A stretch of DNA of 64,000 nucleotides from Eunapius fragilis (taxonomy: Eukaryota > Porifera > Demospongiae > Spongillida > Spongillidae). The DNA is taken from NCBI GenBank assembly GCA_963681505.1, contig OY811971.1, forward strand, positions 16,461,734 to 16,525,733, read 5' to 3'. This document shows, in pieces, positions 1,995 to 43,329 of this stretch (positions are counted from its first letter, which is position 1; each line of letters begins with the position of its first letter). The notes beneath the pieces are model-generated. The model searched no databases. It had not been told where the DNA came from and saw only the letters and a program-made list of their open reading frames with translations. The position numbers and the translations under genes were made by a program.

Positions 1995-3112
1995 CACAGT
2001 GGTTTAGGACCAGGACATTTGGTAGGAAAGGATTTTTCATTTCAAGTGGAAAAACTGTTGTGTAATACCCTACAGTACCACAATATTAGATAAATCTGTT
2101 AGGATTCACAAAGTGTAAAGAGCCGTGTGAAGGGAAAGCATTAGTCATGCCATTTTCCACCCTAGCCTAAAAACATGAGCTAGTTATGTATCCGACAGTA
2201 CAAAGTCAATTATAAAGGAATGATTAGATAGAACTTTTTATTACCAATTCAATGATACTTGATTTATGACATTCTCATGAATTGTGCTAAAGATATTTGT
2301 TTGTTTGTGGTCCAAAATGACGCCATTTTTACCCAAATCTACTTTAGATTCATTGCTCAACGAAGCTAGAGCGCTATATACTGTGTTGTGTGTTTAAATA
2401 CTTTCATCTATCGTTGGCCCTTAGTATAATGCTCGCCGAATCCTGCCGATTCTTAAACCGACGCGACAAAACACTTCGTAACAGATCAATACTATAACGA
2501 TAATTTATTAATAACGGGTAAAAATAGCCACAAATAAGAGACTGGGGACTATTAAAGCCACTACGCTACGATGCAAGCGAAGCTGTTCTCGGGCCTTAGT
2601 GCTGTCTGATAGATAGCATTTGTGTTCTTAATGATGCGCCGTCTATGCTGTTTTTGTTAAAAACGAGAGTGCTTCGTGCGCGCGCACTTTTGTCTTTTGT
2701 TGTCTGTACGTGTACATGTTTATACTAGGGGAGTACAATGAGCTGAAGGAATCCCTTCGGTACGTTTATCAGCGATCTACCGAACGATTAAGTCATATTA
2801 AGATCAAAATATTTTGATTTCATTGGGTTGATTTTAATAAATTATTCTGAAATGACTATCAACATTAATTGCTATGATATGGTAGTAAATGTTTAGTATT
2901 ATTAAAATGTTTTGTTAAAATGTTTCAGTTCATTACAGTTGGATATATAGTCAAACTTGATTGTTTTGATTAGATTTTAATTAATTAACCATAATTAATA
3001 TCATGATTTACTTAGCACCACCTCATTATAAACAACAATACAAACAATTTAGGTTTATTGGTTCACAACAATTTGAAAATGTCCTGGTCACCTATGGTTT
3101 TAAACCACTGTG
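1995..3112. mobile_element. Non-autonomous element with CACAGTG (RSS-heptamer-like) ends, copy 1
   Basis: A 1118-bp insertion in the gypsy-1 pol region, flanked by a perfect 5-bp duplication AGCTG (1990-1994 and 3113-3117). Both ends begin CACAGTGGTTTA. A shared block GACCAGGACATTT follows; its GACATTT part starts 12 bp after the heptamer at the left end and 22 bp after it at the right end. CAC-type termini and 5-bp duplications are known for Transib and ProtoRAG, whose ends are related to V(D)J recombination signals. The interior is AT-rich with no supported ORF, so this is a non-autonomous copy. Assignment to the Transib/RAG lineage is inference. Confidence 0.75.
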
Positions 3113-3117
3113 AGCTG

Positions 3118-4010
3118 ATGGATTGGGGAAGCATTTCCTGTGCTAATAAGGTGGCGCAATACTGACTTTCGCCCCAATTCGTTACTTCTGAAACAGAACA
3201 TGCACATCTGCATATTCTTGTAACAACATGCACGTACAACTGTTCTTTCTCCTTAGTGCCCAAACAATCACCCACCTTGTTCACCAACTCCCACAACAAC
3301 TGGTTCGTAGTTGAAGATTCTCTGCTTGCTTTTGTGACTGAGACATTGAGTACAGAATCCTGTCCAATATGATCCATTTTAGCCAGTTCACTTCCTTTCT
3401 TCAGCTCAATGCTGCACTCTCGAGGATTAAGAATACGAATAGGAACCAATCCATCCGACGGACACGTAACGGCTCTGGCAACTATCACCCCATGACTCAG
3501 CTTAGGGTCATTTTCTATAATTCAAACACCGCCCAATGCCCAAACCGTATTGTCCACCGGTGTGACCATCAACTCCATTTCACACTCAGGAGAAACAAGT
3601 ATTCTTTCTGTTGTCACCAGTCCTACCGACCCCACTGTGGATGTCATTTCTTCCATTGCTTTCGGAGGTAGGAGTTCTACAGACACATCTGCTAATAGTG
3701 TTATCAGAGCAGTCAATAACACACTTGTGTGCCCTAATGAAATCTAATCCAACAATCGCTTCTACCCCAAAGGTCACTTGTTATGACAAAGGATCCATCT
3801 AACTGAGTACCACCAATGCACAAGGGCGCATGAAAACATCCTCTAACAGACAATGGAGTGCCATTAAGCCCCACTAGTTTTTTACCAGGCCAGGGCTGCA
3901 TAATAATAGGAACCCTTGTGTTCTCTATATCTCTCCATATTTTGCTACTCAACAATGACACTGCTGCACCCGTATCTACTAAAATTTAATATGGGTAGAA
4001 GCAATAGTTC
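3118..4010 (-). pseudogene. Gypsy-1 protease and pol linker
   Basis: On the minus strand LVDTGAAVSLLSSKIW (near 3985-3940) carries the aspartic protease DTGA motif. GLNGTPLSVRG and IVGLDFIRAH follow, then a linker with VARAVTCPSDGLVPIRILNP and ELKKGSELAKMD, typical of the spacer between gypsy protease and RT. The segment ends at the insertion of the CACAGTG-ended element. Frame changes are needed throughout, so this is a pseudogene. Confidence 0.8.
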
Positions 4011-4189
4011 CTTGTACACAAACCCTCAACATACCACTGGGTACCGACAAAGTGGGAACTGCTATTTGTGCTTCACTGTCCTGGGCCTTCAGTGCTCCTC
4101 CCCCTCATGGCTGGCCCTTACCATGGAGGATTTGAAGTTTCCCTGTTGCTTTGAATTCTTGCTACTCCAGCACCTATGCAATGTGTCCT

Positions 4190-5680: not shown

Positions 5681-5807
5681 ATAAGATTCTATCACAAGGT
5701 GAATCTCATTAGCGGTGGGTTGAGGCGATCGCGAGGAACACAAAACCCTAGCCTAACATCACTATGCTTCCCACATCTATTGCACCGTCATATCAACCCC
5801 GTGGTAT

Positions 5808-5838
<31 letters not shown>
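5808..5838 (+). repeat. Poly-G tract (31 G)
   Basis: Uninterrupted G run, one of several long G/C homopolymers in the window. Confidence 0.95.
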
Positions 5839-5840
<2 letters not shown>

Positions 5841-5861
5841 TGATAAGGGTACGGATACTAG

Positions 5862-6650
5862 TATACAGTACCGGCTCGGTCATTGATCATAGAGAAAATA
5901 AAGCGTATACATCTGTGTTCATAGCAACCGCTATGAAAACTATAATAGTTGGCTTAGTCCCAATGTATACGCTTTATTTTCTCTATGATCGAGCTGCGAA
6001 ATTTCTCTAAGACAGAGCCAGTACTGTAAATAGTTTTGATAGTGGGATATGATATGACCGCTAACAGCTAGAAGGCCCAATGATTCTCATCTATTGTTCG
6101 TTGTTCATTTTCCGTTGTTTTGAACCCCCTCTTTAGATGGATAGCTCGCACAAACCGTAGGCTCTATTCACCGCTCCCTGCCCACCTTGAATACCAGAGC
6201 AGATCACGGAGTGTGGGTAGTAATTCGCTATAATTAATTTCCAATCCCTCTCTAAAGTATCTATGGTTCAGAGAAAGTAAGAAAACTTGACGTGTACGCA
6301 AATCTAGCGCCAATACGACCCGAAGAACTGGATAGATGTGAGTAATATTTATAAAATGCGTGGTATAGTAGTTTGCGTAACTGATTACCAGCCTTAGTGT
6401 CTATGACGTTATAGAAACGCGCAATCATTACTGCGTGGTAGTCGTGTAAGCGTCTACAGACGAGGCCGGTTATGGTGTACAAGTGACCAGGCAGTGCTGT
6501 CATGGATAGTTCTGTCTAAATAAAGAGGCTAATAAACAGATGCAAGAGGCCTCCGCTCGTAAACATTCATATTAAAAACAAAAACCACCAACGGTGCATT
6601 AATTAGAATACATGCGTATTCCAACAAAGGCAGGGGCGGTGGAAGGGGGG
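5862..6650 (+). repeat. Dispersed repeat; inverted partner at 45640-46225
   Basis: Starts near TACCGGCTCGGTCA and contains an internal hairpin (ATCATAGAGAAAATAAAGCG near 5886 and its complement near 5970). From 6000 to 6650 it matches the reverse complement of 45640-46225 with scattered substitutions, including the GGATAGCTCG and CAGAAGATC-type landmarks and the MITE-like end near 6610. No coding potential seen. Confidence 0.75.
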
Positions 6651-6673
6651 GCAAGGGCAAATTCAATGTTGGC

Positions 6674-6700
6674 GGGGGGGGGGGGGGGGGGGGGGGGGGG
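6674..6700 (+). repeat. Poly-G tract (27 G)
   Basis: Uninterrupted G run, followed by a short C run. Confidence 0.95.
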
Positions 6701-6843
6701 CAGACCCCCCCCTTCCTCCATAATTGTGATACACCTTAATATGAATAAGCGTTAGCGGTGTGGTTCAAGTAATGTGATTCGCTGCCACGCCTGCCAGTAT
6801 GCCACTCATCGATTTAATTACCTGTCCAAAGGATTTAATACAC

Positions 6844-7337: not shown

Positions 7338-9639
7338 AGTCTGGGGACCAGACAATATGGACGGTTTTGTTCCAGGTGTCTCCTCGCAGTACCACAGGAA
7401 TGCTAATAAACGTTATTGTGGGATTACCATGACAATCGCGGTACTCTGTAGTTAGGTACTTCAAGATTTTATTGAAATCGTGTTTTGTGTTGCGATTTTA
7501 TTATCATCAAAAAGAGCAATACAAATGCTGCAGAATGACACCTTAAGCATGATATTTGGTTTAGTATATCAAAAGTTACAGCGTTCCAAACACTGCATTT
7601 TGAGTGAACGGTACGGTATGCGCAATCATAGAAAAAATTGTGACGGTTTATGTTCTCTTTACTGCAGCTATTGTACCACTCAATATTATCTTGACAGAAT
7701 ATAACTACATGTAGGGTACACATATATATGCATACAAATTAGATGAAATAACATTTTCAGATATTTGCAGGTCATCAGTAACATAGTCAACTAAGAACTC
7801 ATAAACGGTCATAGTAGCGTCATGTCCTTCATTCTGATTTTCATCGTGTTTCCAGTAGGTAGCAGTAACTTTTGGCATATTTGACCTTTTGGAACACTTT
7901 ACTGATAAGACATGACCTTGGTAAAGGACATTTTGGTTGTCTACAAACCACATATGTTCAAAGTGAAATCCAATAATTATGGCTGGATTGGTGAGTATTG
8001 CAGTAATGGTGCTTCTCTGATTATCCTGTAGTTCTGTTCTGGGAACTCGTCATGTAGCTGGGCCTTTCCATCAGCCACATTCTGCAGTTTTTTTTGCAGT
8101 TTTCTTCTGAATGGGTTATTTCACACCATCTACTTGTTTGCTTCAACAATAAGTTTTCAGTTTTCAAATGTTTTATTGCAGCATCTTTCTGAGCCATCTT
8201 TTTCTTAAGATCCCTTAATTGTGAGCGAAGGTTGCTTTCAATTCTTAATTTTATACTCAAAGCCTGTTGTTGCTTGCAATTGTCATGCTTTCTGTTTAAA
8301 ATAGTTTGAAACTTTTGCTTCAGTACCTTCTTTGAAATCCAAATCTCTTTTAATTTCAATTGTCTGCATAGACATTGTTCACAGTGGGTCCTTAGCTTCT
8401 GTGAGATGGAACTACTTGGCTTGTCAACTACTGGACACAATGAGGTAGAAGTATGAGGTGCTGAAAGGATTTGAGTTGAAAGGATGAATTGCTCATCTAA
8501 GAGCTTAATCATGGCATCCCAATTCCGATCTAGATGCTTCTTGATTGTTTTTATTGTGTCTGTGAAACGTTGTATTGACCTCTGTAAGGCATCCAGTTCA
8601 CAAATGCTCCAGCTTGTAGAGAAGGCACTTTTTTGGCAGTGCCTGAAATGCTTCTATTTGTGTCATTTGTATATAGGTACATCACCAATGAGTCCTTTTC
8701 TTAGTACTTCAGCCTGTAGAATATTGTCATCACTCATATCACTTCTGAATTCTTCAAGATGCTTGATAAAATCAGCAGCAGTCTTCATCCTAATGTACAA
8801 AATGACACACATTTGACGATTTGTTTACAACGTCTACATATATTTTTACTTTGTGACCGTAAAGTAAGTCAATATAATTGGTCTGGGGACTAGGCTTGAA
8901 ATGATAACCTTGTTTAAAAGTACCTTGGGCATCGGTTGTAAATTACAGAATTCTAATCCCTAGTACTGTTGCATTAGCCATGAAAGAATCTCAACTAAAT
9001 AGTTGCGCCGCTCGAAGATTAAGGTACGCTCTAATTAGAGTTATAATGTGCTCGATCTTTAGACACATAAAACTATTTTCCACTGTTTTATAAGTTACAG
9101 AAACTAGTAAAAAAAAAGTGCTTGTTACACTAAAAGGTTTTGTACGTGATTTGGTTTTACAAAGAGCGCATATCAAGTGCAATCACGAAGGCCATTTGAT
9201 AACACCTTGGGCATCGTCTGAAGTCCATGAAAAAAGAAATGCCAGTAGATTATAACCTTTGGAACCTGTTTATTAAAACTTTATCCCCGCCGCTCAACAC
9301 ATACAAAAGTTTTGCAGAATATGAAAATCAACCATTATTTCAGCGCGCCAGAAATATTGAACAAGTCTAGTTTTCTAGGTTTTGACTGCACCAAGGCTTA
9401 GATAATTTAGTATCCTACCTGAAAAGCACAGCAGAGTCCTCAATTGCAACCGAACAAATAAAAACTAGCCTTCGCTTCTATATCCCGTACAACTTCAATC
9501 CGTCACTTCCGTCACAATTTTTACTCGTTATTTCGGTTACCACTTTTTCGGTACACGTACGTCAAATATTGAAGTACCTACTGTAGTGCTGGATAAGTAC
9601 ATTCCTCTGGCACAAAACCTATGGTCTGGTCCCCAGACT
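7338..9639 (-). mobile_element. 2.3 kb TIR element, AGTCTGGGGACCAGAC family
   Basis: Both ends carry AGTCTGGGGACCAGAC as inverted repeats. The terminal ~100-120 bp at each side matches the 196-bp MITE at 36902-37097, which is essentially the two ends joined. The interior (7705-8816, minus strand) has protein-like sequence. The right end abuts a G-rich tract, so a target duplication cannot be read. Superfamily not determined. Confidence 0.75.
7705..8816 (-). pseudogene. Coiled-coil protein fragment inside the TIR element
   Basis: Minus-strand reading starts with FIKHLEEFRSDMSDDNILQ and CELDALQRSIQRFTDTIKTI, then a Lys/Gln-rich stretch (residues 60-130 of a 163-residue frame ending at 8021) predicted as coiled coil (LRSQLRDLKKKMAQKDAAI). 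A frame change near 8030 leads to a C-terminal block FHFEHMWFVDNQNVLYQGHV ... TVYEFLVDYVTDDL, reminiscent of a small Tudor/chromo-like barrel; this resemblance is only by eye. No transposase motif is seen. The gene is frameshifted and its role in the element is unknown. Confidence 0.5.
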
Positions 9640-9657
9640 GGGGGGGGTAGGGGGGGA

Positions 9658-9659
<2 letters not shown>

Positions 9660-9695
<36 letters not shown>
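9660..9695 (+). repeat. Poly-G tract (36 G)
   Basis: Immediately beyond the right end of the 7338-9639 element. The adjacent sequence (9696-9745) recurs in reverse near 36845-36885, next to a C run and the related MITE. Confidence 0.95.
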
Positions 9696-9697
<2 letters not shown>

Positions 9698-9878
9698 TAA
9701 GGAACCAAAGCTGTAGATAAATGGGCTGTACCTAAAGAGAGAAGGCAGAAAAATAAAATGTCTCGTTCCCAGACCCTATTTATTGGTAAATAGGGTCTGC
9801 GACCAAATTTCGGTTGCAACGGAGTGTTACGTAAGAATTTAATTATACACATCAATTACAAAGCAAGTCACTCAGAAA

Positions 9879-12071: not shown

Positions 12072-12083
12072 AAATAATTAAAA
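12030..12083. promoter_or_regulatory. Presumed bidirectional promoter of the CACTA genes
   Basis: The two CACTA genes start head to head; ATGs are at 12071 (minus) and 12084 (plus), or 12029 and 12084 if the internal Met is used. Transcripts must therefore start within each other's leader or coding region. The gap contains an A/T-rich AAAAATAATTAAAA stretch. Function inferred from layout only. Confidence 0.4.
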
Positions 12084-14944
12084 ATGAACGGCGAGGGAAA
12101 TGAGTATGTGTGTATGGGATGCAATCAAAGTGCGTCAAAAGCAACTTACTATAGACACAAAATACCTGGTGTATGTTCCAGAAAATTTACTCCATTGCGA
12201 AATGAGAATGCAACCTTCTCGGAAGGAGCTGAGTCCGAGCCAGAGTTAACACACAGTGCTAGCGCAGAGGAAGAGTCAGCTGAGAACATATTTGGCATAG
12301 AGTCGGGCGAGGTAGATTTGGAAATGGCAGGAGTAGAGGTTCTTCCGGGAGACGAAGAAGGTGCCGATGTTGCTCCAGATGACACAAGTGTTGCTGAAAT
12401 TGACGTTGAATTAGAACTCACTACAACTCCTGAGGAAATGCGCCTGAATGCGTTTGTGAATACATTGGTGAGTTTCTTGACTTTTATTCAGCTGAAATTT
12501 GGTTTACCAGATAGAGGGTTGCAATCACTTCTTTATCTTGTTGCGTTTGTTATTGAAACAATTTATGCATTGATCCCATCAAACCACATATTAAGAAGCT
12601 TAAGGGATAAAATTCCAACGTCGCTTTATTCATTAAGAAAACGTGCAATGCTACCAAATGCAGGCATAAGGCAGTATTGTGTCTGCCCAAAATGTGATAC
12701 CTTGTACAGTGGTGGAAATCATACCATTCAAACCTGTACATACATTCAATTTCCCAATCATCCTCACAAAAGTCGCAAAGCTGCATGCAATGCATCACTT
12801 CTCAAAACAATAAAAAGCTCGTCATCTTACAAGCTTTTACCAAGAAAGTTGTACAGTTACAATTGCATCATAGAAAATGTTAAAAGGTTAATGTCACGAC
12901 CTGGATTTATGCAACTCTGCAGGGCATGGAATGACAGAACCGTGTCAAGTGGAGTATTAACAGATATTTATGATGGTGGTTTGTGGAATGATTTTAGGAA
13001 TTTTCAGGAAAGACCATTCTTGAATTTTCCTCATAACTTAGCATTTCTTTTGAATGTTGATTGGTTCCAGCCCTTTGATCATGTCCAATACAGTGTTGGT
13101 GTTCTATATCTTACTATTTTAAACTTGCCACGCTCTCAAAGGTACCTTTTAGAAAATGTTATTGTTGTTGGATGCATACCGGGCCCTAGCGAGCCCCACA
13201 ACCTTAATCCTTACCTTGAACCATTGGTTGAAGATTTACTAACCCTTTGGGATGGAGTAGTTTTCAAACCAGAGTCATATCCATTTCCAGTTGTAATTAG
13301 AGCCTGCCTTCTTGGAGTAGCCTGTGATCTTCCTGCAACCAGAAAAGTGTGTGGCTTCACTGGTCATACATCAACCCAAGGATGCTCCAAGTGCATGAAA
13401 ACATTTAAATGTAATAGTTTTGGTGAAAAGCTTGACTATTCAGGATTTAATAGAGAAACTTGGATACCAAGAACTCAAGTTATGCATAATGAAGCAGTGA
13501 ATGCTCTCTAGGTAAAGCAACTTGTTTATCTCAACAGGAGCGCATTGAAAAGATGTATGGTGTCAGGATCTCAGCTCTTGTAAAACTACCATACTTCAAC
13601 ATAATTCGACAACATGTTGTTGATGCTATGCATAATTTATATCTGGGTACAGCCAAACATTTGATTACCATTTGGAAGGAAATGGGATTGTTAACATCAA
13701 ATGAATTAGACATAATTCAAAACAGGGTTGACGAAATGGATGTGCCACATGGCATTGGAAGGATACCAAATAAAATATCATCAAAGTTTAGCAGCCTAAC
13801 AGCAGATCAGTGGCGAAATTGGACAAATATATATTCCTTGTACGCACTGCATAATATTTTACCATCTGAACATTACTCATGCTGGAGTATCTTTGTCGAG
13901 GCATCGATTATTCTATCTCAATACTCTATATCTAAGGAAGACTTGAAGAAAGCTGATGAAAAATTGATTCTTTTTTGCCAAACATTTGAAACATTATATG
14001 GGTCTCAATCATGCACACCTAATATGCATTTACATTGCCACATAAAGGAATGTGTTTTAGATTTTGGTCCAATTTCGTCATTCTGGGTATTTCCATTTGA
14101 ACGTTTTAATGGAATAATGCAGTCATTTCTTAATAATTGGGTTTCTCCTGAGCTTCAAATGATGAAAAAGTTCATTTCATATCAGAATGTGATTTCTTTT
14201 CCCACATCAACCTCTGCCAAACTTGATTATATTCAGTTTGATGAAGGAAGCAGTCTGTTTGGAGAAGGATCTTTGGTGCAAACAGCAACAGATGGCTATG
14301 AGCGTCAGATATATGCGCAAAACTATATCTGTCCTCTCAATTCAATTAATGCTGTACAATTAAAATTTCATACAATTGGTCCTAGAATATTTGAAAACTA
14401 TTTTTCTGATGATGAAGTAAAGAACATCACAAATGTGTACAGCTGGCTTTATCCTCAGTTCATTTCACACCCCCTATTTGTTTGCCGAACACATTTACAA
14501 TTTTATGACTTGCATGCCCATGGAGAACATTTGATTTCCATCAGAGCTAGATCAATGCGTTCATGCACAATCATGGCAATATTTCCAAAGCTAGGTGGGA
14601 CAATAGATCCTGAACAGAAAGTTCTTAGATTTGGAGAAGTTCAGTTCTTCATTCAACATTCCATTCAGTTACCAAACACAGCTATCACTACTGTTCATAG
14701 TCAAACAAAACACCTATTTGCTAAAGTCAAATGGTTCTGTCAACATCCTGGAGAAAATACAGTCTCTTGGCCTCTGAAGATTGTTGCAACAGATTTTGAG
14801 CCAGAAGGTCCATCAACATTTATTCCAGTCAGCAGAATAATATGTAGATGTGCAATTGCTAAGAAACAACCAATAGCATTTGATTGTGGTCATGATGTTG
14901 TTAATATTGTGTGTCCTTTGTTTACTACAGTTGTTCAATTGTAA
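12084..14944 (+). pseudogene. CACTA/EnSpm-type transposase with a single frame break
   Basis: First part 12084-13511 (475 aa): a C2HC-like finger at residues 11-32 (CMGC...H...C), an acidic region, a CPKC site, the block LNVDWFQPF (likely first catalytic Asp, ~residue 325) and CSKCMKTF near the end. The second part starts in another frame near 13500 (GKATCLSQQERIEK), then VVDAMHNLYLGTAKH (likely second Asp) and FERFNGIMQSF (likely Glu), ending at TAA 14942-14944. Together about 950 residues. The join is best explained by a 1-nt loss near 13508. A 41-nt intron (GTGAAT...CAACAG, 13497-13537) would also restore frame but would delete family-like residues. If spliced, the gene could be active. 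Confidence 0.85.
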
Positions 14945-15269: not shown

Positions 15270-16800
15270 ACCACAGTCACTGGGTAAAGATCTGTCACGT
15301 TGGAAAGCTTAACAAACAAGCAATCCGTGTGAAAGAGTACGACCAAGTTATGTCATTCCCACGTAAAATAGACAAAATAGATGCCATATGCTCACCTGAT
15401 GTAGCCACGCCTACCCCTGTCACATGACCTCTTGCACTGTCACCGGCGAGAAGGTCTGTCACATTGGAAAGCTTAACCAACCAGCAATCTGTCGATAAGA
15501 GGAAGACAAGTAATGTCATACCCACATACAATACACTAAATGGAAGCCACTTACTCACCTGATGTAGCCACGCCTACCCCAGTCACATGACCTCTTGCAC
15601 TGTCACTGAGATGAAGGTCTATCACATTGGAAAGCTTAACCAATCACCAATCAGCCCGTAAGAATAAGACGAGTAATGTCATACCCACGTACAATAGACA
15701 AAATGGATGCCACATGTTCAACTGATGTAGCCACGCCTACCCCAGTCGCAAGACCTCTTGCACTGTCACTGGGGAGAAGGTCTGCTGCATTTGAAAGCTT
15801 AACCAACCAGCAATCCGTCCGTGAAAGGAAGACAAGTAATGTCATACCCACATACAATACACAAAATGGAAGCCACATACTCACCTGATGTAGCCACGCC
15901 TACCCCAGTCACATGACCTCTTGCTGCACTGTCACTGAGGTGAAGGTCTATCACATTGGAAAGCTTAACCAATCACCAATCAGTCCGTAAGAATAAGACG
16001 AGTAATGTCATACCCACGTACAATAGACAAAATGGATGCCACATGTTCAACTGATGTAGCCACGCCTACCCCAGTCACATGACCTCTTGCACTGTCACCG
16101 GGGTGAAGGTATGTTGCATTGGAAAGCTTAACCAACCAGCAATCCATCCGTAAAAGGAAGACAAGTAATGTCATACCCACATACAATAGACAAAATGGAA
16201 GCCACATACTCACCTGATGTAGCCACGCCTACTCCAGTCACAAGACCTCTTGCACTGTCACCGGGGAGAAGGTCTGCTGCATTGGAAAGCTTAACCAACC
16301 AGCAATCCGTCCGTGAAAGGAAGACAAGTAATGTCATACCCACATACAGTACACAAAATGGAAACCACATGCTCACCTGATGTAGCCACGCCTACCCCAG
16401 TCACATGACCTCTTGCACTGTCACTGAGGTGAAGGTCTATCACATTGGAAAGCTTAACCAATCACCAATCAGTCCGTAAGAATAAGACGAGTAATGTCAT
16501 ACCCACGTACAATAGACAAAATGGATGCCACATGTTCAACTGATGTAGCCATGCCTACCCCAGTCACATGACCTCTTGCACTGTCACCGGGGTGAAGGTC
16601 TGTCACATTGGAAAGCTTAACCAATCACCAATTTCATACCCATGCACAATAGACAAAATGGATGCCACATACTCAACTGATGCAGCCACGCCTACCCTGT
16701 CACAAGACCTCTTGCACTGTCACTGGGGTGAAGGTCTGTCACGTTGGAAAGCTTAACCAATTACCAATCTGTCCAAAAGAGTAAGACAAGTAATGTGATG
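15270..16800. repeat. 163-bp tandem repeat array (about 9 copies)
   Basis: The landmark TGATGTAGCCACGCC starts at 15397, 15560, 15723, 15886, 16052, 16215, 16378 and 16541, with a variant at 16678. The period is 163 bp (once 166; last unit shortened to 137). Two unit types alternate over much of the array: one with CAGCAATCCGTCCG and the other with CACCAATCAGTCCGTAAGAA. This gives a ~326-bp higher-order period. The array lies inside the CACTA element between the transposase stop and the right terminal region. Open frames across it are repeat artefacts. Confidence 0.93.
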
Positions 16801-17237: not shown

Positions 17238-17653
17238 TCAGCTATTATCATGTTCCTACTTCAATATTCAAACGCGGACGTAAGGTACGTGACGCAGTTC
17301 CACTCCGATAAAATGGTAATTGTTTCTGGTTGAATGCTTCTTCGTAAGTAATGCAGGTGGGAGGGAATATTATCAACTTCCGTTCCAACTATCTGGAGTG
17401 TTGCAGTGATACATCCAGAGGATATGTGGCTTAAAACGGTGATTTTGGCACAACAGAGAGTATACCTGGTACCAAGTACAGCTCCATATTAATTAATTAA
17501 ATTCATACGTATAAACCTGACAGTTTATGGTGTAATAAGTGCAATGTGAAAAATGTATCCAATTCCTCGAGCTACAGAGGTGGTGCTTATTTTTCAGCTA
17601 AAGATCAGCAGAAACTGTTTACACTCACTGGTAAACGACTCATAATAGGCTTT
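17238..17653 (+). repeat. Direct repeat A, left copy
   Basis: About 410 bp that recurs in the same orientation at 36421-36830 with roughly 90% or better identity by eye. The left copy starts right after the CACTA target duplication. Neither copy has an LTR-like TG...CA border. It flanks the inverted arms B/B'. Confidence 0.8.
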
Positions 17654-28062: not shown

Positions 28063-28125
<63 letters not shown>

Positions 28126-30084: not shown

Positions 30085-30086
30085 AG

Positions 30087-31951: not shown

Positions 31952-34900
31952 AACTTTATCACTGCATGAACACATTTAACTGAAATTATAAGTCTTCCTT
32001 TCAATCATTTTCATCTAATGTTTTACAGATACTTTCAGCTACAGTGCATAATATTTCCCCCCATTGCATTGGCTGATTAACTTTAAATACAGGTTCGAAA
32101 TTCTACAGTAGACTTTGTGGATCGAAACTCCAACAAGTAGAATACATATAGCACAGTTACTAGCTGCGTGTGCAGATAAGCAAAATCAATGCATGGACAG
32201 TATATTCGATTCATTAGACAATGCACATTATGAAGTGTATTTAGACTACCCCATGCAGTTTCAGTAAATCTCATTACTATATATGCAATATGTGGCTGTG
32301 GTAGTCTGCACGACAATTTTAAGTCGACTTTTTTTAATGTCTGACATCAATAGATAGATCGCTGCGCCTCGAAACTGTTACAGAGTCACGCACGGTGCGT
32401 GCAGGGACTTTCCTTTTGGCCCACGGAAAGAAGCAATTCCCATATTAATTAACTTTGAACAGAGCAATGTAAATATCTACTCCTATTGGTACCTAACAGG
32501 AGTTGCGCATACAATTTTTAAAGAGCTACTGTTATCGCTGTACACAATTTGTTGGCCGTAGGAATACGCTTAAATAGACCAGTACATGCAATAATTCCAT
32601 CGAATCTATCATATAGCAATTCTGATAATATTGGACGGCATAGAAAAACTTAGTTACATGTATAAAAAAGATGATATCAATTTGAATAACGTGCATTTAG
32701 AATGCACATTGCCACTCTAGAGACATCAAACAATAATGCATATACAATGAGTGGTAAATTTTGGTTTGCATCTTATAATCATATAAAGTCAGCCATTTTT
32801 TGATTTTGTTTACAGTACGTTACAAAGTAAAATGGAGGAAGATGTTGATTAGTGGAATGAGGAATGCATGATAGTTCAACGTGTGAGTGCCACATTGTAT
32901 ACAAACTAACTCTAATCATAATAAAAAATGTAAATCTAGCCTATTCATCTTTGCGCACAATGATGGCTGTAATGTTGTCTAGGACAGTGATATCGTCATT
33001 GCTGATGAACTTCTCTCGTTCCAACTCATTGATCCCATCTTCAATATCACTGTCTGTCAGGGCACGCAAAGGGGTCATATACCTTGCCCTCAACATGGTG
33101 TACCACTGGTGCTTACTCATTTTCATCTCCATAATTTCTTCTGACACCTCGACCACCATACCATGGCACCTTAAGCACTCAATGATGGCCGGAATATCAG
33201 CACACGACTTCTCATACAACGGTATGGCCTTGGCAAAGAAAGGTATTGTAGTCTTCGCCGGCCTTGTCAGGATGAAGCAAAGTGAACCAGGGGTTAACCA
33301 CTGAGCCCACATCTTGAAAATGGAGGTGATATCTGAGAAGAGGTGGATGCTGCACAGAATTAACGCCTTGTCGAAAGTGTAGTTCTCTTTTTTCCCGAAG
33401 AACTCTTCAGCTGTCATCATGAGCGGATGGATCCCTTCCTTTTTACCAGCCTCTCTGAGCATTTGCTCTGAGGAATCTACGCACAAGATGCCGCGCTTCA
33501 ACCCTGCTCGCTTATAGATGGCATGTGTGAGGGTTCCAGTTCCGCCACCAATGTCAACCACAGTATCGTCCCTGTCAAAGCTAACCAAGCGAAATACAAC
33601 TTTGAATAACTCTTCTAAGATCTGTGCATTGCATTGGTCGTAGACGTCAGCAATTGCGCTGTAGTGTAAAGAAGATATGTTCTCTGTTCGACGGCATCAG
33701 GGCACCGAAGAGAAATGGAAGAGTGAGGAGAAGAGGTGTCATGCTACATTGAAATACATCCAAAACATGCATTATAGAATCTCATTCTAAACACTGGTAG
33801 CTGTTCAATCAGCATGTACGTACCATCAAGCCCACTCGACATTTCAGAGGTTCTTTTCACTTCCGATTTCACTCCTGTAACTCTGTATAAATCATGTCCA
33901 CATACACAAATAAATGGCAATACCATTACTATACCATAAATAGGGCAATGGTTCATTGCCATTAACTTATCTATGTGAATGTAAAATGAATATATTCTGC
34001 AATGTTATACTAAAAATAATTTTAAAACCACATGCATGATGATGGACAAAGAGACTATCGGAGCATTTATAATTCCATAGGTCATGCAAGTAATAATGTA
34101 CCATTGATGTTGAAATATATACATTTATTATTGAACTATTTATCTGTGCCATGTAGTTGTCTAAAAGGATAAAGAAATGTGGGTGTGAAACTACGGTAAT
34201 GTTTACATCTACATGCTTGTATAAAACTAAAATGTCCTGATTTATACACAATTTTATAAGTGTGATGATTTACTGTTTTATCCAATGTTGATGCAAATGA
34301 GTATGTAAATATTGTATATGTGACATTTCCGCTATGTGTGGGATTGTATAAAATCCCAGTGAGTTCATGCATGTCGGGGCCTATGGACTACCATTGTGAT
34401 GTTTGTATAGGTGTGAGGTTAATCCATTTATAGTATTCCTGCATGTTCACACATGCAACCTATTATTCCTCCTTGTTCATGGTGCCAGCTTGTGGTCAGG
34501 GAGAGTGACTAACATTCATCTAATTGCGGCTTGGTATTGAATACATCAGCAGGATCCTATAATGTACTCCCTGCTCTACACTGCTATGGGGCACAGCTAC
34601 GTCTCAACATAAAAAGGCAATGCTTTTTTGTTACTGATCTGCAACTAAAGAAAAATTTCAGTGCAGTCCTAATAGCTAATAGTGAGATGTGAGTTTGCCT
34701 AATTAAATTTACAGTCAATTGCAGATAGGATAGGTTTATTGCTGCATCGATTATTATAAGTTACACTACATAACAAAATGATCAAAGGGATTGTGCAAGA
34801 TAAGTTGAAGTGATTCCAGTGAATCAATGGCATGCTCCTTTGCAGCTACAGATTGTTTTCCTTGCCATGTAGGAGAGCTTGCATAATCCTCACAAGCAGA

Positions 34901-36420
34901 GAAGGAAAGGATCACATGATACAAAGGGACACCAATTGTGCTTCATAGCTGTGCATGCAGTATGCAAAAAAAAGCAGAACCAATTTTAACATCCATAGAA
35001 AATAGAGCGGTGTCTGCATTCTGTGTGGCTAAGTGGTTTGCATTTTGATGTTTAGCAATTGGAGAGCGGACCCATCTCTTCCATGATATTATAGGCCTAT
35101 ATTGACAGCTATTTCAGGACCAGCAAGTACCAACGATATGTAGGAGCAATTCAGTACTTGCTTATGTAGGAGCAATTCAGTACTTGCTGGTCCTGTAACA
35201 AGTGTCTCAATGGCCTGTAATATCACGGCTACACATCAAAATGCAAACTACTCAGCCATGCAAAATGCCACATTGCTCTATTTTCAATCTCAAATTGCAT
35301 GTATGACGACATCTAATTACCCAAACCTGGACATCATGAGTGGTACCATGTGTTCTGCCTTTATTGCATCTCAAAGCAGCACATGCGCAGCTATGATGCA
35401 ATTGATGTCCCATGAAAGCATTGTACCATATGATCCTTTTCTTCTTCCCTTGATTTAAGATTGTGAAAACTCTCCTACATAGCAAGGAAAATACAGCAAA
35501 AACACCTGGCCTTGTCTGATAACCATATCAGGCTATGGCCTGCCTGGCCTTATAGACACAAGCTTCCACAGTGCCACGCTTGTCATTTCAGGTGCTGCAA
35601 CCATTCATAATAAAATCACATCAGATTTATGTCCTCAGAAGAAGAAGCTCATGGAGACATCACAAATTGAAGACTTTCAGTTTGATATTTGTTTGCTATG
35701 CTGACAAGGCCAGGCTTTTAGCAGCCTTTTATTCCTTCTTGCTTGTGGTGCCAACTCGCGTGGGTCACTAAATTGAAAACATCAGCCAGATGTAATATAC
35801 TCACTGCTCTACACACTCCTTGGGGCACCACTTAAGATCTTGTAGGGGTAAAAGGAGACGACCCCTTTACCCCTACATGATCTTACGTGGTGCCCAAAGC
35901 ATGTAAGGAGTGGTGTAGAGCAGTGAGTACATTACGATCCTGCTGATGCTTGAACGTTTTGTGCCTATAATGAAGACAACGCCGTTGTCTTCAGACAAAA
36001 CATAAGTATAGGCACAAAACGTTCAATGTGACACTGGACATGGGTCTACCCATGACCATGCACCACCAGACCACCACCAGCTGACATATTGATTTCCAAC
36101 TTATTAGTACTGCATATAGCAGGCTGCCCAAACTGATTAATGCTAATGTCATTTCAGAGGTGGGATTCAGAGGTCACCTGCTTAGGTCAGAGATCAGGAA
36201 ACACTAGATAAATACGATCCTAAACATTGCATCTATCTTGTCAGCTGCAAGGGTATCGAAGCACAACATACAGTTGATTCGCCGGCTCTCCATCAAAGCT
36301 GATCGAACAGTGTCCAGGGAGGTTGCCAATCCCTATGACCATCTCAACATGACAGTGACCAAATAATTAGCTATACAACATTCAGCATTGTATGGCATCA
36401 TTGAGTTCACGCAGCGTTGT
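31952..36420 (-). repeat. Inverted duplication, right arm (B')
   Basis: Reverse complement of arm B. It holds the intact methyltransferase copy and the empty integration site of the Mutator-like element (around 32165-32180). It ends at the junction with direct repeat A'. Confidence 0.88.
32941..33842 (-). CDS. SAM-dependent methyltransferase (class I fold), intact copy
   Basis: Two exons give a 253-residue product: exon 1 33842-33824 (MSSGLD plus one base, donor GTACGT) and exon 2 33683-32941 after CAG preceded by a pyrimidine-rich tract. The splice keeps frame into HYSAIADVYDQ. Motif I VVDIGGGTGTL (residues ~48-58) is the SAM-binding Gly-rich loop and CVDSSEQML (~77-85) the acidic loop. Later blocks are FDKALILCSIHLF and DNITAIIVRKDE at the C-terminus. 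It belongs to the broad methyltransferase 11/25 type. No transmembrane or targeting signal is evident and the substrate is unknown. Exon 1 is short and inferred. The gene sits inside the inverted duplication and is the only intact host-like gene here. Confidence 0.8.
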
Positions 36421-36830
36421 ATTAACATGTTCTTACTTCAATACATTCAAACACAGACGTAAGGTACGTGACGCAGTTCCACTCTGATAAAATGGTAATA
36501 GTTTCTGGTTGAATGCTTCTTCGTAAGTAATGCAGGTGGGAGGGAATATTATCAACTTCCGTTCCAACTATCTGGAGTGTTGCAGTGATGCATCCAGAGG
36601 ATATGTGGCTTAAAACAGTGATTTTGGCACAACAGAGTACCTGGTACCAAGTACAGCTCCATATTAATGAATTAAATTCATACGTATAATCCTGACAGTT
36701 ATGGCGTAATCAGTGCAATGTTAAAAATGTTTCCAATTCCTTGAGCTACAAAGGTGGTGCTTAAAGAGCAGCAGAAACTGTTTACACTCACTGGTAAATG
36801 GTAAACGACCCATAATAGGCTTTTTTTTCT
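36421..36830 (+). repeat. Direct repeat A, right copy (A')
   Basis: Same orientation as 17238-17653. Because B' is inverted but A' is not, the order is A-B ... B'(inverted)-A'. Confidence 0.8.
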
Positions 36831-36901
36831 GTCTTCCCACCTCAGGCACACCCCATTTATCTACAGCTTTGGTTCCCTTATGTGCCCCCCCCCCCCCCCC
36901 C

Positions 36902-37097: not shown

Positions 37098-37850
37098 ACC
37101 CCTCTCCCCTCCCCCACGAAGGTTGTTGAGGTGTGTTCGCTATATAATATGTAAGTATCTTACCTGCTTGCTGTGTTATATGTGGGTACGCTGGCTTGCA
37201 TAAAAAATATCGTTAGTCACCACGCGTCCTTTAGGGGGCTTGTCCAAACTATATTTGGAAAAATTAGCGTCATTGTGACGTTAGAGGGAGGGGTTAAGGC
37301 TATGACGCTAAGAAAATTTTATTGTCGCAAGTTTTGCGAAACATCTTAGTACTATAAAGCTATAAACTAGCTTGCAAGCAACATTGACTCTAGTGGCAGC
37401 AGTTATGTCTATTCAGACTACACTTTTCAGAGAAGTATTGAAAGATGTGCAACACATTTACAAGGTGCCATGAGACGCGTGCGAAAATTTTATTGAGTTG
37501 TGGTGGCAACGAGCCAGGCAAGAGAAACCAGGAGCAAGCAAGAACGAACTTCTCAAGCAAGCACAGGTATGTAGTTTATAGAGGCACAGCTGCTAAATAT
37601 ACTTCTAACCTGTACTATATGGTAGGTTAAATGGAAAGCTATGAAGAATTCACCTAAGGATCTTGAAAACTTTTTCACTGAGTGTGAGGAACAAGGTACA
37701 GAGAGTGGGCAGTATGATGTGGATGTACCGGATTATGAGAATATGGGTTTTCCAGAATGGCAACCTCAACAACAGGTGTGCAGTCTTGTTGTATATAGAT
37801 CTAATTGTACATAAAGATTTTCTGTTTACATACATGTACAGCAGCAATGC

Positions 37851-38155
37851 ATGGCCCTCAGTCATGCTCAACACATGGCCCTCAGTCTTGCTCAACACAT
37901 GGCCCTCAGTCATGCTCAACACATGGCCCTCAGTCTTGCTCAACACATGGCCCTCAGTCATGCTCAACACATGGCCCTCAGTCCTGCACAACACATGGCC
38001 CTCAGTCTTGCTCAACACATGGCCCTCAGTCTTGCTCAACACATGGCCCTCAGTCTTGCTCAACACATGGCCCTCAGTCTTGCTCAACACATGGCCCTCA
38101 GTCTTGATCAACACATGGCCCTCAGTCTTGCTCAACACATGGCCCTCTGTCACCA
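37851..38155 (+). repeat. 24-bp minisatellite, 13 copies
   Basis: Unit ATGGCCCTCAGTCTTGCTCA plus ACAC, at exact 24-bp spacing from 37851 to 38139. Because 24 is divisible by 3 every frame stays open, giving 8-residue peptide repeats such as HGPQSCST. It begins right after a candidate acceptor (TACATGTACAG). Opposite-strand frames are artefacts. Confidence 0.97.
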
Positions 38156-41100
38156 TCATGTCCTGTGATTTCAAGTACATTGCAAGCAACTTGTGTGCCA
38201 CCATCATCCACTCCCTCACAGGCAGAATCATCATCAACTCCTTCACACATGCTTTTCAATTTTCTCTGTCCTGCAATTGACTTTTTGACTGATGATGTGA
38301 GGAATAAAAAGGCATTCATGACTTGTGTGAAATCCTCAGAGCAATCATTGCTGTATTTCCTAAACCTCAGGGAGAAATATTTGGCAAAACAAATCCGAGA
38401 CAGGCCAAGAAACCTCAATAAGTACCTGGATGAAATCCAGAAAAGTATTGATGCAATTATTTCCTTTATTGGCGAAGCTTCAAAGTTGAATATCAACCCA
38501 TCCATTGGGGTTGATAGACTTGCATGAATGTGTGTGCAGAAGCAAGAACTTCTCACTCGAATTGGTCAATCCCTCATTGCACTGAAAAACAAAATAACCT
38601 CTAGAGATGTACTGAACAACATTTGTCGCAGGGTTCAACAGCAATCAGAGGCACATACAGAAGACAGCAATGTGATCTGCTGCCACATGCCCAACTATAC
38701 TTGGAAATTGGCCTACCAAAAGCTTGAAGATCAGCAAAACTCAGGTGTCTCTGGTTTTCCCCTTCAAGATGATGGATGACCTAAGGTAAGGTTATCTGTA
38801 CACCTTAACTCATTTAGAATTACATGTGATAACAGTGTAAACCATGAACCAGATAAGCATATCTTGTTGTTACTGCATACACACAGAGAAATAGGAGTGA
38901 TGCTGGAAAGTTCTTTGGCTGTCCCTCTCTCTGAGCTGATGAAGTGTTTTGAGCACTTGCTCACCCTCGGCTGTTGTTAGGCAAAAGTTGCTGAGTCTTT
39001 CCCAATACTGGTCGTTTCCAAGGGTGATTACACTGTGCTGATCAACAGCCATGAGCTTATAATGACTGGTGATGGCTTTGAAGCTCTGCTACTTGTTGAT
39101 CAAGTTCCAAAAAAGCTCCCACAAGAAACCTTCAGAGAAAGAAACCACCTTTTTGTCTACTGCTAGTGGAACATATAGTCAAATCGGAATACCATCACTT
39201 GTGTCTCAATTTCCCTCAATTGTGTCTACTGCTGCCTCATTTGTGAAAGCTAATGGAATCAGTGCACATGAGCGGTGCAGAGAAAGCATTGGAAAAGTAG
39301 GAGTGAGCCTCAGAGAAATTAGAAAGCATCTACTCAGCACAGTACCTGGCTTAAAAAAACATGGAATTAGTGCAGGCTCAGTGGCTCGTCTCATGCAGCC
39401 CCCAAGACATGGAACAAGAGCAAGCTTAAGGTACAAAGGGCAAGTTGCTGCCAGGGTTCCTGGCAAGCAAAACCGGTACCGAGAATTCCACACAGACCTG
39501 CACTAGCACTATCTCTTTGCTCAAGTTGCCTACAGGAGTGAGTTCTCAGTCATGTTTGAGAATGAATGTGCTCTGTTCAGCTGTGATGATATGAATAAGA
39601 TCAAGGTGGGGGCCTTAGCAGTAAGCCGTTATCATCAAATTCAGCGTTTCTTCCCTGATGATGATGTTCCAAACGTGCCTGATTACAATTTTCCAGTTCC
39701 AGGATATCTGCTGATTCCTTCTGGGTATATGAGACTAGTGAAGAAGCCATCACCTACTGCCAATACAATGTACCTAGAAAGTGAAGACATGACAGAGTAC
39801 AGAGACGATGGGCTGAACGATACCTGCACAATGTCTCTAGCCACAGCTGTTTGCACAAGTGCCCATGAAGGCCATGGTCAGCATCATGGACACAAATCTT
39901 CTCATCACAGTACCTGTCAAGTGACAACAGTCAGCACCACTACTATTTCAAGTACACAAATATCCATCCATGTGGAATACAGACCAACAACAAGCCAGAA
40001 TGCCAATCTACATGTGGAGGTTCATAGTAATGTAAACCAAACAATATCACTGTCATGTACTACCAACACTCATGGCAATGTCTCCATGAAGACTCCTGAA
40101 GTAGCAGCCCATAGTACAATGACCTTGGTAGACCACATATCAAGATACCACACACTGGCCCCACGACAGTCTGCTTACGTGCTGCTCGTTTCCATAGCTC
40201 TACGTGTGAGATGCACCTCCATGATATGATAACCTTTAATCAGAGCTGCTGTCAGTGAAGGGAAAACGGTCGTAACACTCATAGTTGATGGTGGTCCTGA
40301 CTGGAGTGCATCCTCACTGTTGAATGCTCTCTACTTTATGCGGCTTAGGAAAGCCTGCAAGCTCGACATGCTGTGTGTCACCTCCTTTGCAGCACGGTAC
40401 TCAGCTTACAATCCAATTGAGCATCTGTGGTCTGTGCTGAGCAAGAAGTTAGTGTCAGTTCAGTTGTCTGCTATTGCTACAAGTGATGACAAGGCTCCAT
40501 ACTACATCAGTGGCATAACAGATGAGCAGAAGAAAGCAAAAGAATCTCAAGTATTCGATGATGCTATTGAAGAGATTGCTGATGTTCACTGGAACAATGC
40601 TGTATTTGATGGCTTTCCTATCACTCCTGTCCCAGTGAAGTGTAGTGACCACTTTGCAAGTGATCATGACATAGTTTCTAAGTTTTTGAAAGCCCCTCTA
40701 AAGGAGATTCGAGCTGGATCCACCCACACAGTGCTACTTGAACAGTTTAGGTCTCTGTTTGGACACGTGAAGATGCACCATAATGAGATTGTGTTTCTCA
40801 AGTGCCAGGAGAGTACCTGTACTCATTGCACAAGCAATCCGGTTTAAGCAAGGAAGTCTTTCCTGATAGATACATGTAGGAAGATGAAGCTCTTTTACCC
40901 AATGCCCAGTAAAGAGCACAAAGATCATTACTACACTTTTCTGGACATGTGTACTAAGAAACCTGAGGAGCTGCCCAATGCAGATACCCACCTGCCATCC
41001 TATGACAAGAACCTTGGAAACTGTCCCCATTGCCCTGACTTTGTCTTCCTCTCCAAGACTGCAAAGAAACGGCACCTTCAAGTGTTCCACCCCAAGAAAA

Positions 41101-41308
41101 GGAGTGTGGTCTGGAAAAAGTCCTCTCAGTCAGCTGAAAAGAGGTTCAAGTGCATCATCAGCTATGCTCTGGTGCTGTTTGTGGCCAGATGTTTGGAACC
41201 ATGTACCAGTTGCGAAAGCATTGTAAAATCGCTTAACACCAGGCAAATCGTAAGAGAATATCTGCAGCAGCTTCATTAACCCCTAAGAGAAATAATCCTC
41301 CTAGTGAC

Positions 41309-41600
41309 ATGTCTGACTCTGAAGGAGACAACCCTCCTCCTGGTGACATGCCTGACTCTGAAGAAGCCAACCCCCCTCCTGGTGACATGCCTGACTCTGA
41401 AGAAGCCAACACCCTTCCTGGTAACATGTCTGACTCTGAAGAAGCCAACCCCCCTCCTAATAACTTGTCTGACTCTGAAGAAGCCAACCCCCCTCCTGGT
41501 GACATATCTGACTCTGAAGAAGCCAACCCCCCTACTGGTGACATGTCTGACTCTGAAGAAGAAAACCCTCCCTCTCCTGGTGACATGTCTGACTCATAAG
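41309..41600 (+). repeat. 39-bp coding minisatellite (acidic 13-residue repeat)
   Basis: About seven tandem units encode DSEEANPPPGDM-type peptides, with unit variation including one longer unit. It lies between the C2H2 finger and the PHD finger of the DDE-type gene, acting as an acidic linker. Confidence 0.9.
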
Positions 41601-41895
41601 GAGACAGCCCTCCTCCTAGTAACATGTCTGACTTTGAAGGTGACAACCTTCCCAGCGACACATCTGATGTGGAAGAAGCTGTGACTATGCTGCCAGCTGG
41701 CCACAGCAGAAGAGCTAAGATGTGACTGTGTTGCCTCCTTCAGAAATCAAGTCCTATGTCACAACAGCCACCACCTCAGATGAGGGAGCAGAGAAGTGCA
41801 TTCTGTGTGAGTTAGGTGAAGATGAGGATGAAGAGATGGAAGTCTAGATTGAATGTACACAATGCTTTAGGTGGATACATGAAAGCTGTCTCTTA

Positions 41896-43329
41896 CACAG
41901 TGGTTTAGATATAGGGGTGATGTAGACATTTTTTATTTCATACATGTTATATGCATATCACAATTTTAAACCAATATCATGTCCATAACCATTTATGAGT
42001 TATTAATTAATTCTAATAGATATAATCAAGCCATAGTAATCAAGATATCAAAATTTTGAGATCTCACAATATTTAATCATAATAATATTAGTTATTTTAT
42101 TTAATTCTACTGTCATTATATAGGCCAATATCATTTCCATAACCATTTATGAGTTTTTAATTAAATTCAATAGATATAATCAAGCCATAATAATCAAGAT
42201 ATTTAGAAATTTGAGATCTCACGATATTGAGTCATAAGAATATTAGATATTTTATTTCATTCTACTGTCATTCTGCAACCATTGGCACTATTTTCTTCTT
42301 GAAGTAGTGCCTGCGTTTTCCTGGTTCTTTCACATGGGCTGAGCTAATGTAATGCAGTGTTTCTACTCCTTCACTCCGACCTTCCAGCACACGAGCAATC
42401 TGTACCACAATCACTGGATCCTTATACAGATGTACCTGCTGATGGTAGGCCTACATTCTCTGCACTGGTAAGATCAGCAGTTGTGGTTGCAGGTTCACAA
42501 ACATTGCAGCTTAAACACTGCTTTTATAGATATGTTGGAAAGCCTCGAAAGCAATTATACAAGCTGCACTTCTTTGGATCTTCATCTTGGATGGCGCCAT
42601 GTAGTTTGTTCATAACGAAAGGAAGCAAAACGCACACAAGCTGCCTTTGTACGGCTTCCTTACCTTCGATAGATTGAACACCTTCGTCAGCCTGAAATTG
42701 TCTTGCAGAACCTGTTTCTAGACGTACTTGTTGTAAGGTTCCACGATCGTAATTTTTTTTGTCGTGCGTGCGCGTGCATGAATTATTGTGGGTTATTAAT
42801 ATGTTCGCGTAAGTGGGTAGCGTTTAGTTCTGGCCTTATTAGTGACATTAAACAGAAAGCGGGGCGTTGGCGGTGCGTATTTTCGGGATGCCAGCTGATA
42901 TTAGCAGCAATTTTTATGATCAATTTTTTTTTATGGGCTCTAGTTTGTTCTACCGGATGAATGTTAGACACTACAATCCAATATTTTGCCATTACGCAAG
43001 CCTTTTGTTGCAAAAAAAAGGCTTATTCGAAAGGCTTAAAGCATTACATATTTGGTATCTTTCTATACGTAAGAGAAACCGCTATCTAAATACGTATTCA
43101 TTTTGTTTCCCATTTGCTCCATTAAATGTGCAGTTGCATATAATGACGGAAATGGAACAGCTCAAAATATTCATCTTTTTTTTGCTTCAACATTAACAAT
43201 CTAACAAAATCCAAACAATTCGACATTGTTTTTAGTGAAATGTGATCCTTTAGGCTATTTTGAGCAACTATTTGTAAAAAAGCATTTAGGTCATACCCTA
43301 ACCCCATGTCTACATCTTAAATCACTGTG
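41896..43329. mobile_element. Non-autonomous element with CACAGTG (RSS-heptamer-like) ends, copy 2
   Basis: A 1434-bp insertion inside the PHD-finger exon. Left end: CACAGTG, 22-bp spacer, GACATTTTT. Right end (reversed): CACAGTG, 12-bp spacer, GACATGGGG. The flanks TCTTA (41891-41895) and TCCTA (43330-43334) are a 5-bp duplication with one mismatch. Removing the element and one duplicate joins SCLL to PNYPFKSQDN in frame. The interior holds a ~155-bp direct repeat (41966-42110 and 42120-42260) and a minus-strand protein-like stretch near 42250-42450. It shares ends, but not interior, with 1995-3112. Confidence 0.75.
42252..42445 (-). pseudogene. Unidentified exon-like stretch in CACAGTG element
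   Basis: The minus strand encodes AYHQQVHLYKDPVIVVQIA then RVLEGRSEGVETLHYISSA, ending KRRHYFKKKIVPMVAE and a stop. A candidate acceptor (GAATGTAG) precedes it. A further protein-like stretch (TLQQVRLETGSARQFQADEG) lies upstream near 42740-42665. It may be a captured host exon or remnant of an element-encoded protein. I see no resemblance to RAG1 or Transib transposase. Confidence 0.3.

Follow-up and report, generated by a model that had tools for sequence, protein, structure and literature searches.

A 64,000-nucleotide stretch of the genome of the sponge Eunapius fragilis (GCA_963681505.1, contig OY811971.1), hereafter the window, contains two non-autonomous DNA transposons with 5-bp target site duplications, copy 1 and copy 2 (Table 1). 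The window corresponds to C1:16461734-16525733 of the assembly, which comprises 218.9 Mb in 24 contigs. Both elements are bounded by inverted ends that start with CACAGTG, and in each of them the heptamer is separated from an inner GACAT by 12 bp at one end (12-end) and by 22 bp at the other (22-end). Copy 1 reads CACAGTG, 12 bp and GACATTTGG at its 12-end (1995-2022) and CACAGTG, 22 bp and GACATTTTC at its 22-end (3112-3075, minus strand). Copy 2 reads CACAGTG, 22 bp and GACATTTTT at its 22-end (41896-41933) and CACAGTG, 12 bp and GACATGGGG at its 12-end (43329-43302, minus strand). These four ends had been described in a first-pass annotation made from the letters alone, and they are present letter for letter. 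The block that it saw shared between the ends is real but longer than noted: 13 bp (GACCAGGACATTT) are common to the two ends of copy 1 and 11 bp (GATGTAGACAT) to those of copy 2. Beyond the first 12 bp, the longest exact block between the ends begins, in both copies, at position 14 in the 12-end and at position 24 in the 22-end. The four letters 5' of GACAT are the same within each copy and different between the copies, and this pattern therefore suggests that the inner recognition unit may be GAN4GACAT rather than a 9-bp nonamer. Relatives of copy 2 give the same double alignment at the two 78-bp repeats in its interior.

Table 1 Coordinates of the two Transib elements and their parts in the window.
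Feature	Position	Strand	Remarks
Copy 1, non-autonomous Transib element, 1118 bp	1995..3112	+	12-end left, 22-end right
Target site duplication AGCTG, left flank of copy 1	1990..1994	.	same letters as 3113-3117 (5/5)
Target site duplication AGCTG, right flank of copy 1	3113..3117	.	same letters as 1990-1994
Copy 1 12-end heptamer CACAGTG	1995..2001	+	
Copy 1 12-bp spacer	2002..2013	+	
Copy 1 12-end shared box GACCAGGACATTT	2008..2020	+	includes GACAT
Copy 1 22-end heptamer CACAGTG	3106..3112	-	
Copy 1 22-bp spacer	3084..3105	-	
Copy 1 22-end shared box GACCAGGACATTT	3077..3089	-	
Copy 2, non-autonomous Transib element, 1434 bp	41896..43329	-	22-end left, 12-end right
Target site duplication TCTTA, left flank of copy 2	41891..41895	.	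4/5 letters shared with 43330-43334
Target site duplication TCCTA, right flank of copy 2	43330..43334	.	4/5 letters shared with 41891-41895
Copy 2 22-end heptamer CACAGTG	41896..41902	+	
Copy 2 22-bp spacer	41903..41924	+	
Copy 2 22-end shared box GATGTAGACAT	41919..41929	+	
Copy 2 12-end heptamer CACAGTG	43323..43329	-	
Copy 2 12-bp spacer	43311..43322	-	
Copy 2 12-end shared box GATGTAGACAT	43306..43316	-	
Copy 2 interior, two 78-bp repeats	41971-42048 and 42125-42202 (span 41971..42202)	.	92% alike

When copy 1 and one of its duplications were removed and the flanks joined, an open frame ran across the joint (PIHQLPRRVPQACREEVRRLLREMLDNGIIAPS) that resembles the start of a Ty3/gypsy reverse transcriptase; the transcriptase proper continues in another frame (RVT_1, E 6.1e-27, 1441-1899, minus strand). 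The joined flanks of copy 2 gave a Cys/His-rich, PHD-finger-like frame (CTQCFRWIHESCLLPNYPFKSQDNDFICPDC) with an in-frame stop further upstream. Both frames were judged by eye. Because the flanks rejoin into open frames, the element boundaries and the 5-bp length of the duplication are well supported. A scan of the window for heptamer-like ends flanked by a 5-bp duplication, tolerating at most one mismatch in the duplication, returned 15 candidate pairs and ranked copies 1 and 2 first and second. The motif CACNGTGNTTTA occurs in the window at the four ends and at a single further site at position 66. This site (66-105) is a solitary CACAGTGTTTTA with GACAT at spacer 27, for which no partner was found, and is probably a chance match.

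We searched the whole genome for CACAGTGGTTTA followed by GACAT at spacers of 5-35 bp. The search returned 235 matches, 219 of them at spacer 12 or 22: 109 lay at spacer 12 and 110 at spacer 22, as against 2 at spacers 5-11 (one being a 22-end counted again), 11 at 13-21 and 3 at 23-35. Reversed-pattern controls over the same five spacer searches yielded 2 matches in total. The 12-mer CACAGTGGTTTA without the box requirement had 326 genome matches versus 51 in its control, and 235 with the box; by subtraction, therefore, most real ends carry the GACAT box, whose conservation the first-pass annotation had singled out for checking. Three inward-facing pairs that lack GACAT, noticed among 100 of the 326 places, are again 12/22, with one-letter changes in the boxes; two of them (L057 and L059) are one duplicated stretch, and the third, L058, is flanked on both sides by CACAG. 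Two public collections gave no recognisable family members: viral_contigs had 2 matches in one search (spacers 33 and 19) and 0 in another, and genome_contigs had 0 and then 6, none at spacer 12 or 22. We took these 8 matches as chance.

Pairing was analysed on 200 of the 219 ends (100 of the 109 12-ends and 100 of the 110 22-ends) by joining nearest inward-facing neighbours less than 8 kb apart. Among these listed ends there were 48 inward pairs, comprising 47 12/22 pairs, one 22/22 pair and no 12/12 pair. In 10,000 label shuffles the number of 12/22 pairs averaged 24.1 and reached at most 38. These data bear out the earlier proposal that every element has one end of each type, and the asymmetry is that described for Transib Subgroup I (PMC9435367). 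The single 22/22 pair (L022), the only like pair among those listed, lies between inverted flanks (attgctaatg / cattagcaat) that show no 5-bp duplication, and it is probably an inverted duplication rather than an element. The pairs span 983 to 6469 bp. Eighteen regions with both ends were fetched, and the target duplication was 5/5 in 13 of them and 4/5 in 2. The inverted ends with a terminal CAC heptamer and the 5-bp target duplications are both those of the Transib superfamily. Two of the perfect duplications lie in homopolymers (CCCCC or GGGGG, in L024 and L030), so that these two elements sit in such tracts; long poly-G tracts are present in the window at 5800-5852, 6638-6707, 9621-9711 and 61884-61974. 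At C16:3868104-3868289, a 12-end and a 22-end of two subfamilies are arranged back to back over about 190 bp and have a transposase copy next to them.

Longer relatives of the two copies encode a DDE transposase that resembles the RAG1 core and lies between ends of the same kind. Its best sequence match is HzTransib, followed by BbRAG1L, and its kinship extends to RAG1. The genome holds at least 86 matches to this transposase (61 of 266 candidates scored), which were merged into 42 clusters. A listed end lay within 5 kb upstream in 21 of the 42 clusters, 20 times a 12-type and once a 22-type that belongs to a neighbouring pair (C1:7732228-7733633); a listed end within 3 kb downstream was found in 17 clusters and was always 22-type. 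Ten clusters had both flanking ends and 14 had neither. Therefore, the 12-end marks the 5' side of the transposase gene and the 22-end its 3' side; by this polarity copy 1 is oriented left to right and copy 2 right to left. Taken together, the 12/22 pairing, the HzTransib-like transposase and the polarity establish these as Transib elements with fixed, polar and asymmetric ends.

Among 12 listed transposase proteins, the stretch from CxxC to LH measured 67-71 residues in 9 (the other three were not scored), and a CCHC-like tail was present in 6, four of them with Cx2Cx3Hx4C and two with longer gaps; the other six end or shift frame upstream of the tail position. With the first structural model, every one of the 47 Foldseek rows at E <=0.001 was HzTransib, RAG1 or BbRAG1L, a result that is partly sequence-driven. 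Chains of the three proteins were tied in the structural comparison (Z within 1). No nonamer-binding domain was aligned. Compared with Ephydatia muelleri, the transposase shares 88% identity with a protein of that species, and a methyltransferase-like protein of the window shares 60% with its counterpart there; this contrast possibly reflects horizontal transfer or a different constraint.

The interiors of copies 1 and 2 show only weak similarity to each other, confined to the side of the 22-end (2 of 300 shuffles scored as high; the stretch is AT-rich). They had been called unrelated; each interior in fact belongs to a repeat subfamily of the genome. For copy 1, identity is 98% with L032 and 94-95% with L033 and L034. 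Copy 2 has 88-91% identity to L029, L027 and L031, and shows 67-75% similarity over three stretches to the transposase-bearing L055, in which the 22-end is clear and the 12-end was not found. 22-ends carrying GACCAG, as in copy 1, stand beside transposase clusters on C2, C8 and C13. On the 3' side of GACAT, the 17 elements compared show a G-rich tendency at their 12-ends (GACATGGGG, GACATTGGG) and a T-rich one at their 22-ends (GACATTTTT).

Asymmetric ends of this general kind have been reported before. According to a review (PMC8355894, citing Kapitonov and Jurka 2005), Transib5 of Drosophila melanogaster and Transib2, N1, N2 and N3 of Anopheles gambiae have 12/23-asymmetric ends. Like the sponge family, they combine a CAC heptamer, one 12-type and one 23 +/- 1 end, a RAG1-core-like transposase and 5-bp duplications. 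They differ in having an RSS-like nonamer (RSS, recombination signal sequence) where the sponge elements have the GAN4GACAT block, and the long spacer is 22 bp here; the present family is also distinguished by its sponge host, about 219 ends in several subfamilies and a demonstrated polarity relative to the gene. A later paper describes asymmetric ends in all Subgroup I Transibs, together with a retained alpha11-alpha12 stretch and a CTT1 tail (PMC9435367); the word sponge is absent from its main text, and a pelagophyte RAG-like (RAGL) element with 4/13 spacers is reported there. We infer from the asymmetric ends, the 67-71-residue stretch and the CCHC-like tail that the sponge family may fit Subgroup I. 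Of the solved structures, HzTransib of Helicoverpa zea (PDB 6pqn) is closest to the transposase in sequence, but its CxxC-to-LH stretch, counted on alignments, has about 31 residues against 70 here and about 65 in RAG1.

The first-pass annotation had likened the 10-bp offset between the ends to the 12/23 rule, and the structural parallel is real, with the same enzyme superfamily behind it. The ends share with the 12RSS and 23RSS of jawed vertebrates an identical consensus heptamer (CACAGTG), one 12-bp spacer and the pairing of unequal spacers. They are the ends of mobile elements, not gene-segment signals; only 1-2 of 9 letters match the nonamer ACAAAAACC in 34 ends of 17 elements, in agreement with the earlier remark that the block is not the canonical one, and the long spacer has 22 bp rather than 23. 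Because of the absent nonamer and the 22-bp spacer, the family looks like a paired-signal system but is not an RSS.

We interpret copies 1 and 2 as non-autonomous cut-and-paste transposons of the Transib superfamily, with bipartite ends that a RAG1-like transposase brings together as unlike pairs, and we put the probability of this reading at roughly 0.8. Each end would consist of the terminal CACAGTGGTTTA as the cutting site and the inner box GAN4GACAT as a putative transposase-binding site. The same two parts would serve at both ends with spacings 10 bp, or about one turn of DNA, apart: heptamer and GACAT are separated by 12 bp at the 5' end and by 22 bp at the 3' end, an offset that would place the two boxes on one face of the helix. 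The RAG1-like DDE transposase of the longer relatives would pair one end of each kind, cut at the heptamer and insert with a 5-bp stagger. This enzyme would thereby move the two window copies and is predicted to require a 12/22 pair.

A number of observations weigh against this interpretation. The window copies carry no transposase, copy 1 is directly linked to a transposase-bearing element by its end sequence only, and L055 and L056, which have the longest open transposase frames fetched, possess only one recognisable end each. No listed partner within 8 kb was found for 104 of the 200 listed ends. In a first list (100 of the 237 matches of a slightly wider pattern), 54 ends were unpaired, and a convincing partner was recovered for 2 of the 18 of these that were fetched; one of the two, L049, gained a 22-end partner with a 5/5 duplication. 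The other, L054, is a 21/12 element whose 12-spaced end has a changed box letter and whose duplication is 4/5, and L040, also among the fetched ends, has only a weak partner (5/5 duplication, 8/12 letters, no GACAT). Sixteen of the 235 matches lie at other spacers, several at 20-21. Among the 18 regions fetched with both ends, no duplication was seen in L017 (2/5), L022 (2/5) and L028 (0/5); L057 and L059 also lack a 5-bp duplication. The structural models are poor, with mean pLDDT of 42 (first) and 54 (second). Finally, a pairing can be inherited without being required.

This last point is the core of a serious rival, in which the unequal ends of the founder elements were simply inherited by every copy and the transposase has no 12/22 preference; we give it considerable weight, though less than an even chance. 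Cut-and-paste copies carry both ends, so asymmetry persists within a subfamily, and RAG1 without RAG2 reportedly does not favour asymmetric pairs (PMC8355894). The 47 12/22 pairs lack independence, since many of them are copies within one subfamily and many stem from a few subfamilies: they fall into 21 distinct spacer combinations, the commonest in 10 copies. In 30 of them the four letters before GACAT are the same at both ends (CCAG in 12, TGTA in 11, TGAT in 5 and TGCA in 2), and in the remaining 17 they differ by one or two. The first-pass annotation had argued that elements with unrelated interiors are unlikely to owe their shared spacing to inheritance, which is a weak argument because ends pass down with the transposon family whatever befalls the interior. 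Against descent alone, the lengths stay at 12 and 22 while the variable spacer letters drift, with a mean pairwise identity of 0.44 among 21 distinct variable parts of 12-ends and 0.56 among 48 of 22-ends; the constant length in this comparison was set by the choice of pattern, and the searches at other spacers are the test of length. Indels are common elsewhere in the elements, as the spans of the pairs indicate. One 12-end spacer, AGACCAT, pairs with four different 22-end spacers, a hint that ends may have been exchanged between subfamilies, and such an exchange would have left no 12/12 or 22/22 outcome. The sharp spacer lengths beside drifting letters, together with the possible end exchange, favour constraint and are not proof of it.

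A RAGL family that encodes both RAG1L and RAG2L, as ProtoRAG does, would share with these elements the CAC heptamer, 5-bp duplications, bipartite asymmetric ends and a RAG1-like core. Moreover, the tail Cx2Cx3Hx4C resembles the CTT* motif of RAG1L (Cx2Cx3GHx4C) and is one residue shorter, and the CxxC-to-LH stretch of about 70 residues is near that of RAG1 and longer than that of HzTransib. We nevertheless consider this origin improbable. HzTransib is the better sequence match, and the sponge heptamer CACAGTG is neither the protostome RAGL consensus CACTWMCAAAC nor the CACTATG of ProtoRAG. In L021, which alone among the fetched elements combines both ends with one long transposase frame, no second open reading frame (ORF) of at least 150 residues was found, nor was one in L055 and L056, of each of which one end was recognised. 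The RAG2 profile found no match in the genome, but the controls were equally silent, so absence is not shown. ProtoRAG of amphioxus likewise joins a heptamer-like TR1 to a 9-bp TR5 distinct from the RSS nonamer, with unequal spacers; as described in PMC8289069, these are 27/31 and the unlike pair is preferred in assays, and ProtoRAG carries RAG2L. TR5 (GCCATCTTG) shares 4-6 of 9 letters with the boxes here, which we do not read as homology; a reading of GACAT as TR5 or as YY1-like was set aside, since matches of at least 6/9 occur at 1% of window positions.

Chapaev-type (CMC) elements also have CAC termini, and in two fetched elements of the sponge family, L017 and L020, there is a gene, RING-like or similar to the RAG1 N terminus, of a type described for Chapaev in PMC4411706, with profile scores under the curated cut-offs. 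Such an assignment is very unlikely. Chapaev duplications are described as generally 3-4 bp (PMC4079192) against 5 bp here, the match to HzTransib contradicts it, and the L020 gene lies in a 2.3-kb insert nested within an ordinary 1.46-kb element. The alignment with L029 that reveals this insert led us to reject 12/22 elements carrying a RAG1 N-terminal/RING region as a class. In L020 (324-4110), the insert gene matches RAG1_imp_bd (E 1.6e-4) and RING (E 2.2e-4), both under the curated cut-offs, and is present in many copies genome-wide (157 matches to one part of the gene and 169 to another). L017 (248-6716) has about 2.9 kb more than L018 and L048, and the extra sequence holds a Cys-rich ORF on the opposite strand that is RING-like by eye, although Pfam gives no RING match for it. 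Accidental similarity between short motifs has a negligible probability: CACAGTG alone is about as common in the window as expected by chance (15 occurrences against 12.4), but a shared 5-mer with a consistent spacing pair arose in 1 of 20,000 independent shuffles of the four ends, and the genome counts against the reversed controls refute it.

The window also contains a large inverted duplication (17852-21382 and 32507-36424). Its arm pieces are 88-98% alike, both arms hold a methyltransferase-like gene, and a direct repeat of 193 bp (17266-17458 and 36445-36637) is located just outside them. Two adjacent tnp2-type transposase ORFs occupy 12078-14944 (PF02992, E 1.3e-15); a DUF4218 match there falls below its cut-off. 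A tandem array with a 163-bp period and about nine copies is located at 15282-16799, and a 24-bp minisatellite, open in several frames (WPSVLLNT repeat), at 37797-38228. At 39066-41895, the frame that is PHD-finger-like by eye and interrupted by copy 2 lies beside a run of ORFs without Pfam match, with 39-bp repeats between them. One of these ORFs contains NPIEHLW, which we take to look DDE-transposase-like.

Transibs with asymmetric ends, 12/23 among them, have been published before, and the sponge elements are an unusually well-sampled further case. A search of listings and of the starts of abstracts recognised no open-access paper on Transib end spacing in sponges, which does not prove that none exists. 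These elements bear on the origin of the 12/23 rule. In the account of the review, no invertebrate RAGL ends follow that rule, and among transposons only some Transibs do (PMC8355894); the later paper extends asymmetric ends to one Transib subgroup throughout (PMC9435367). The sponge family offers about 219 ends in a 12/22 arrangement of fixed polarity, with open transposase frames, and such material makes it directly testable whether a Transib transposase needs a 12/22 pair in the absence of RAG2. It also shows that the inner box need not resemble the nonamer. A tentative and, on balance, doubtful extension is that the pairing of unlike signals one turn apart is an ancestral Transib/RAG trait, fixed in sponges with CACAGTG. 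If so, the 12/23 rule would have been inherited from transposon end recognition and would predate Bilateria, and only the nonamer and its binding domain would have changed later.

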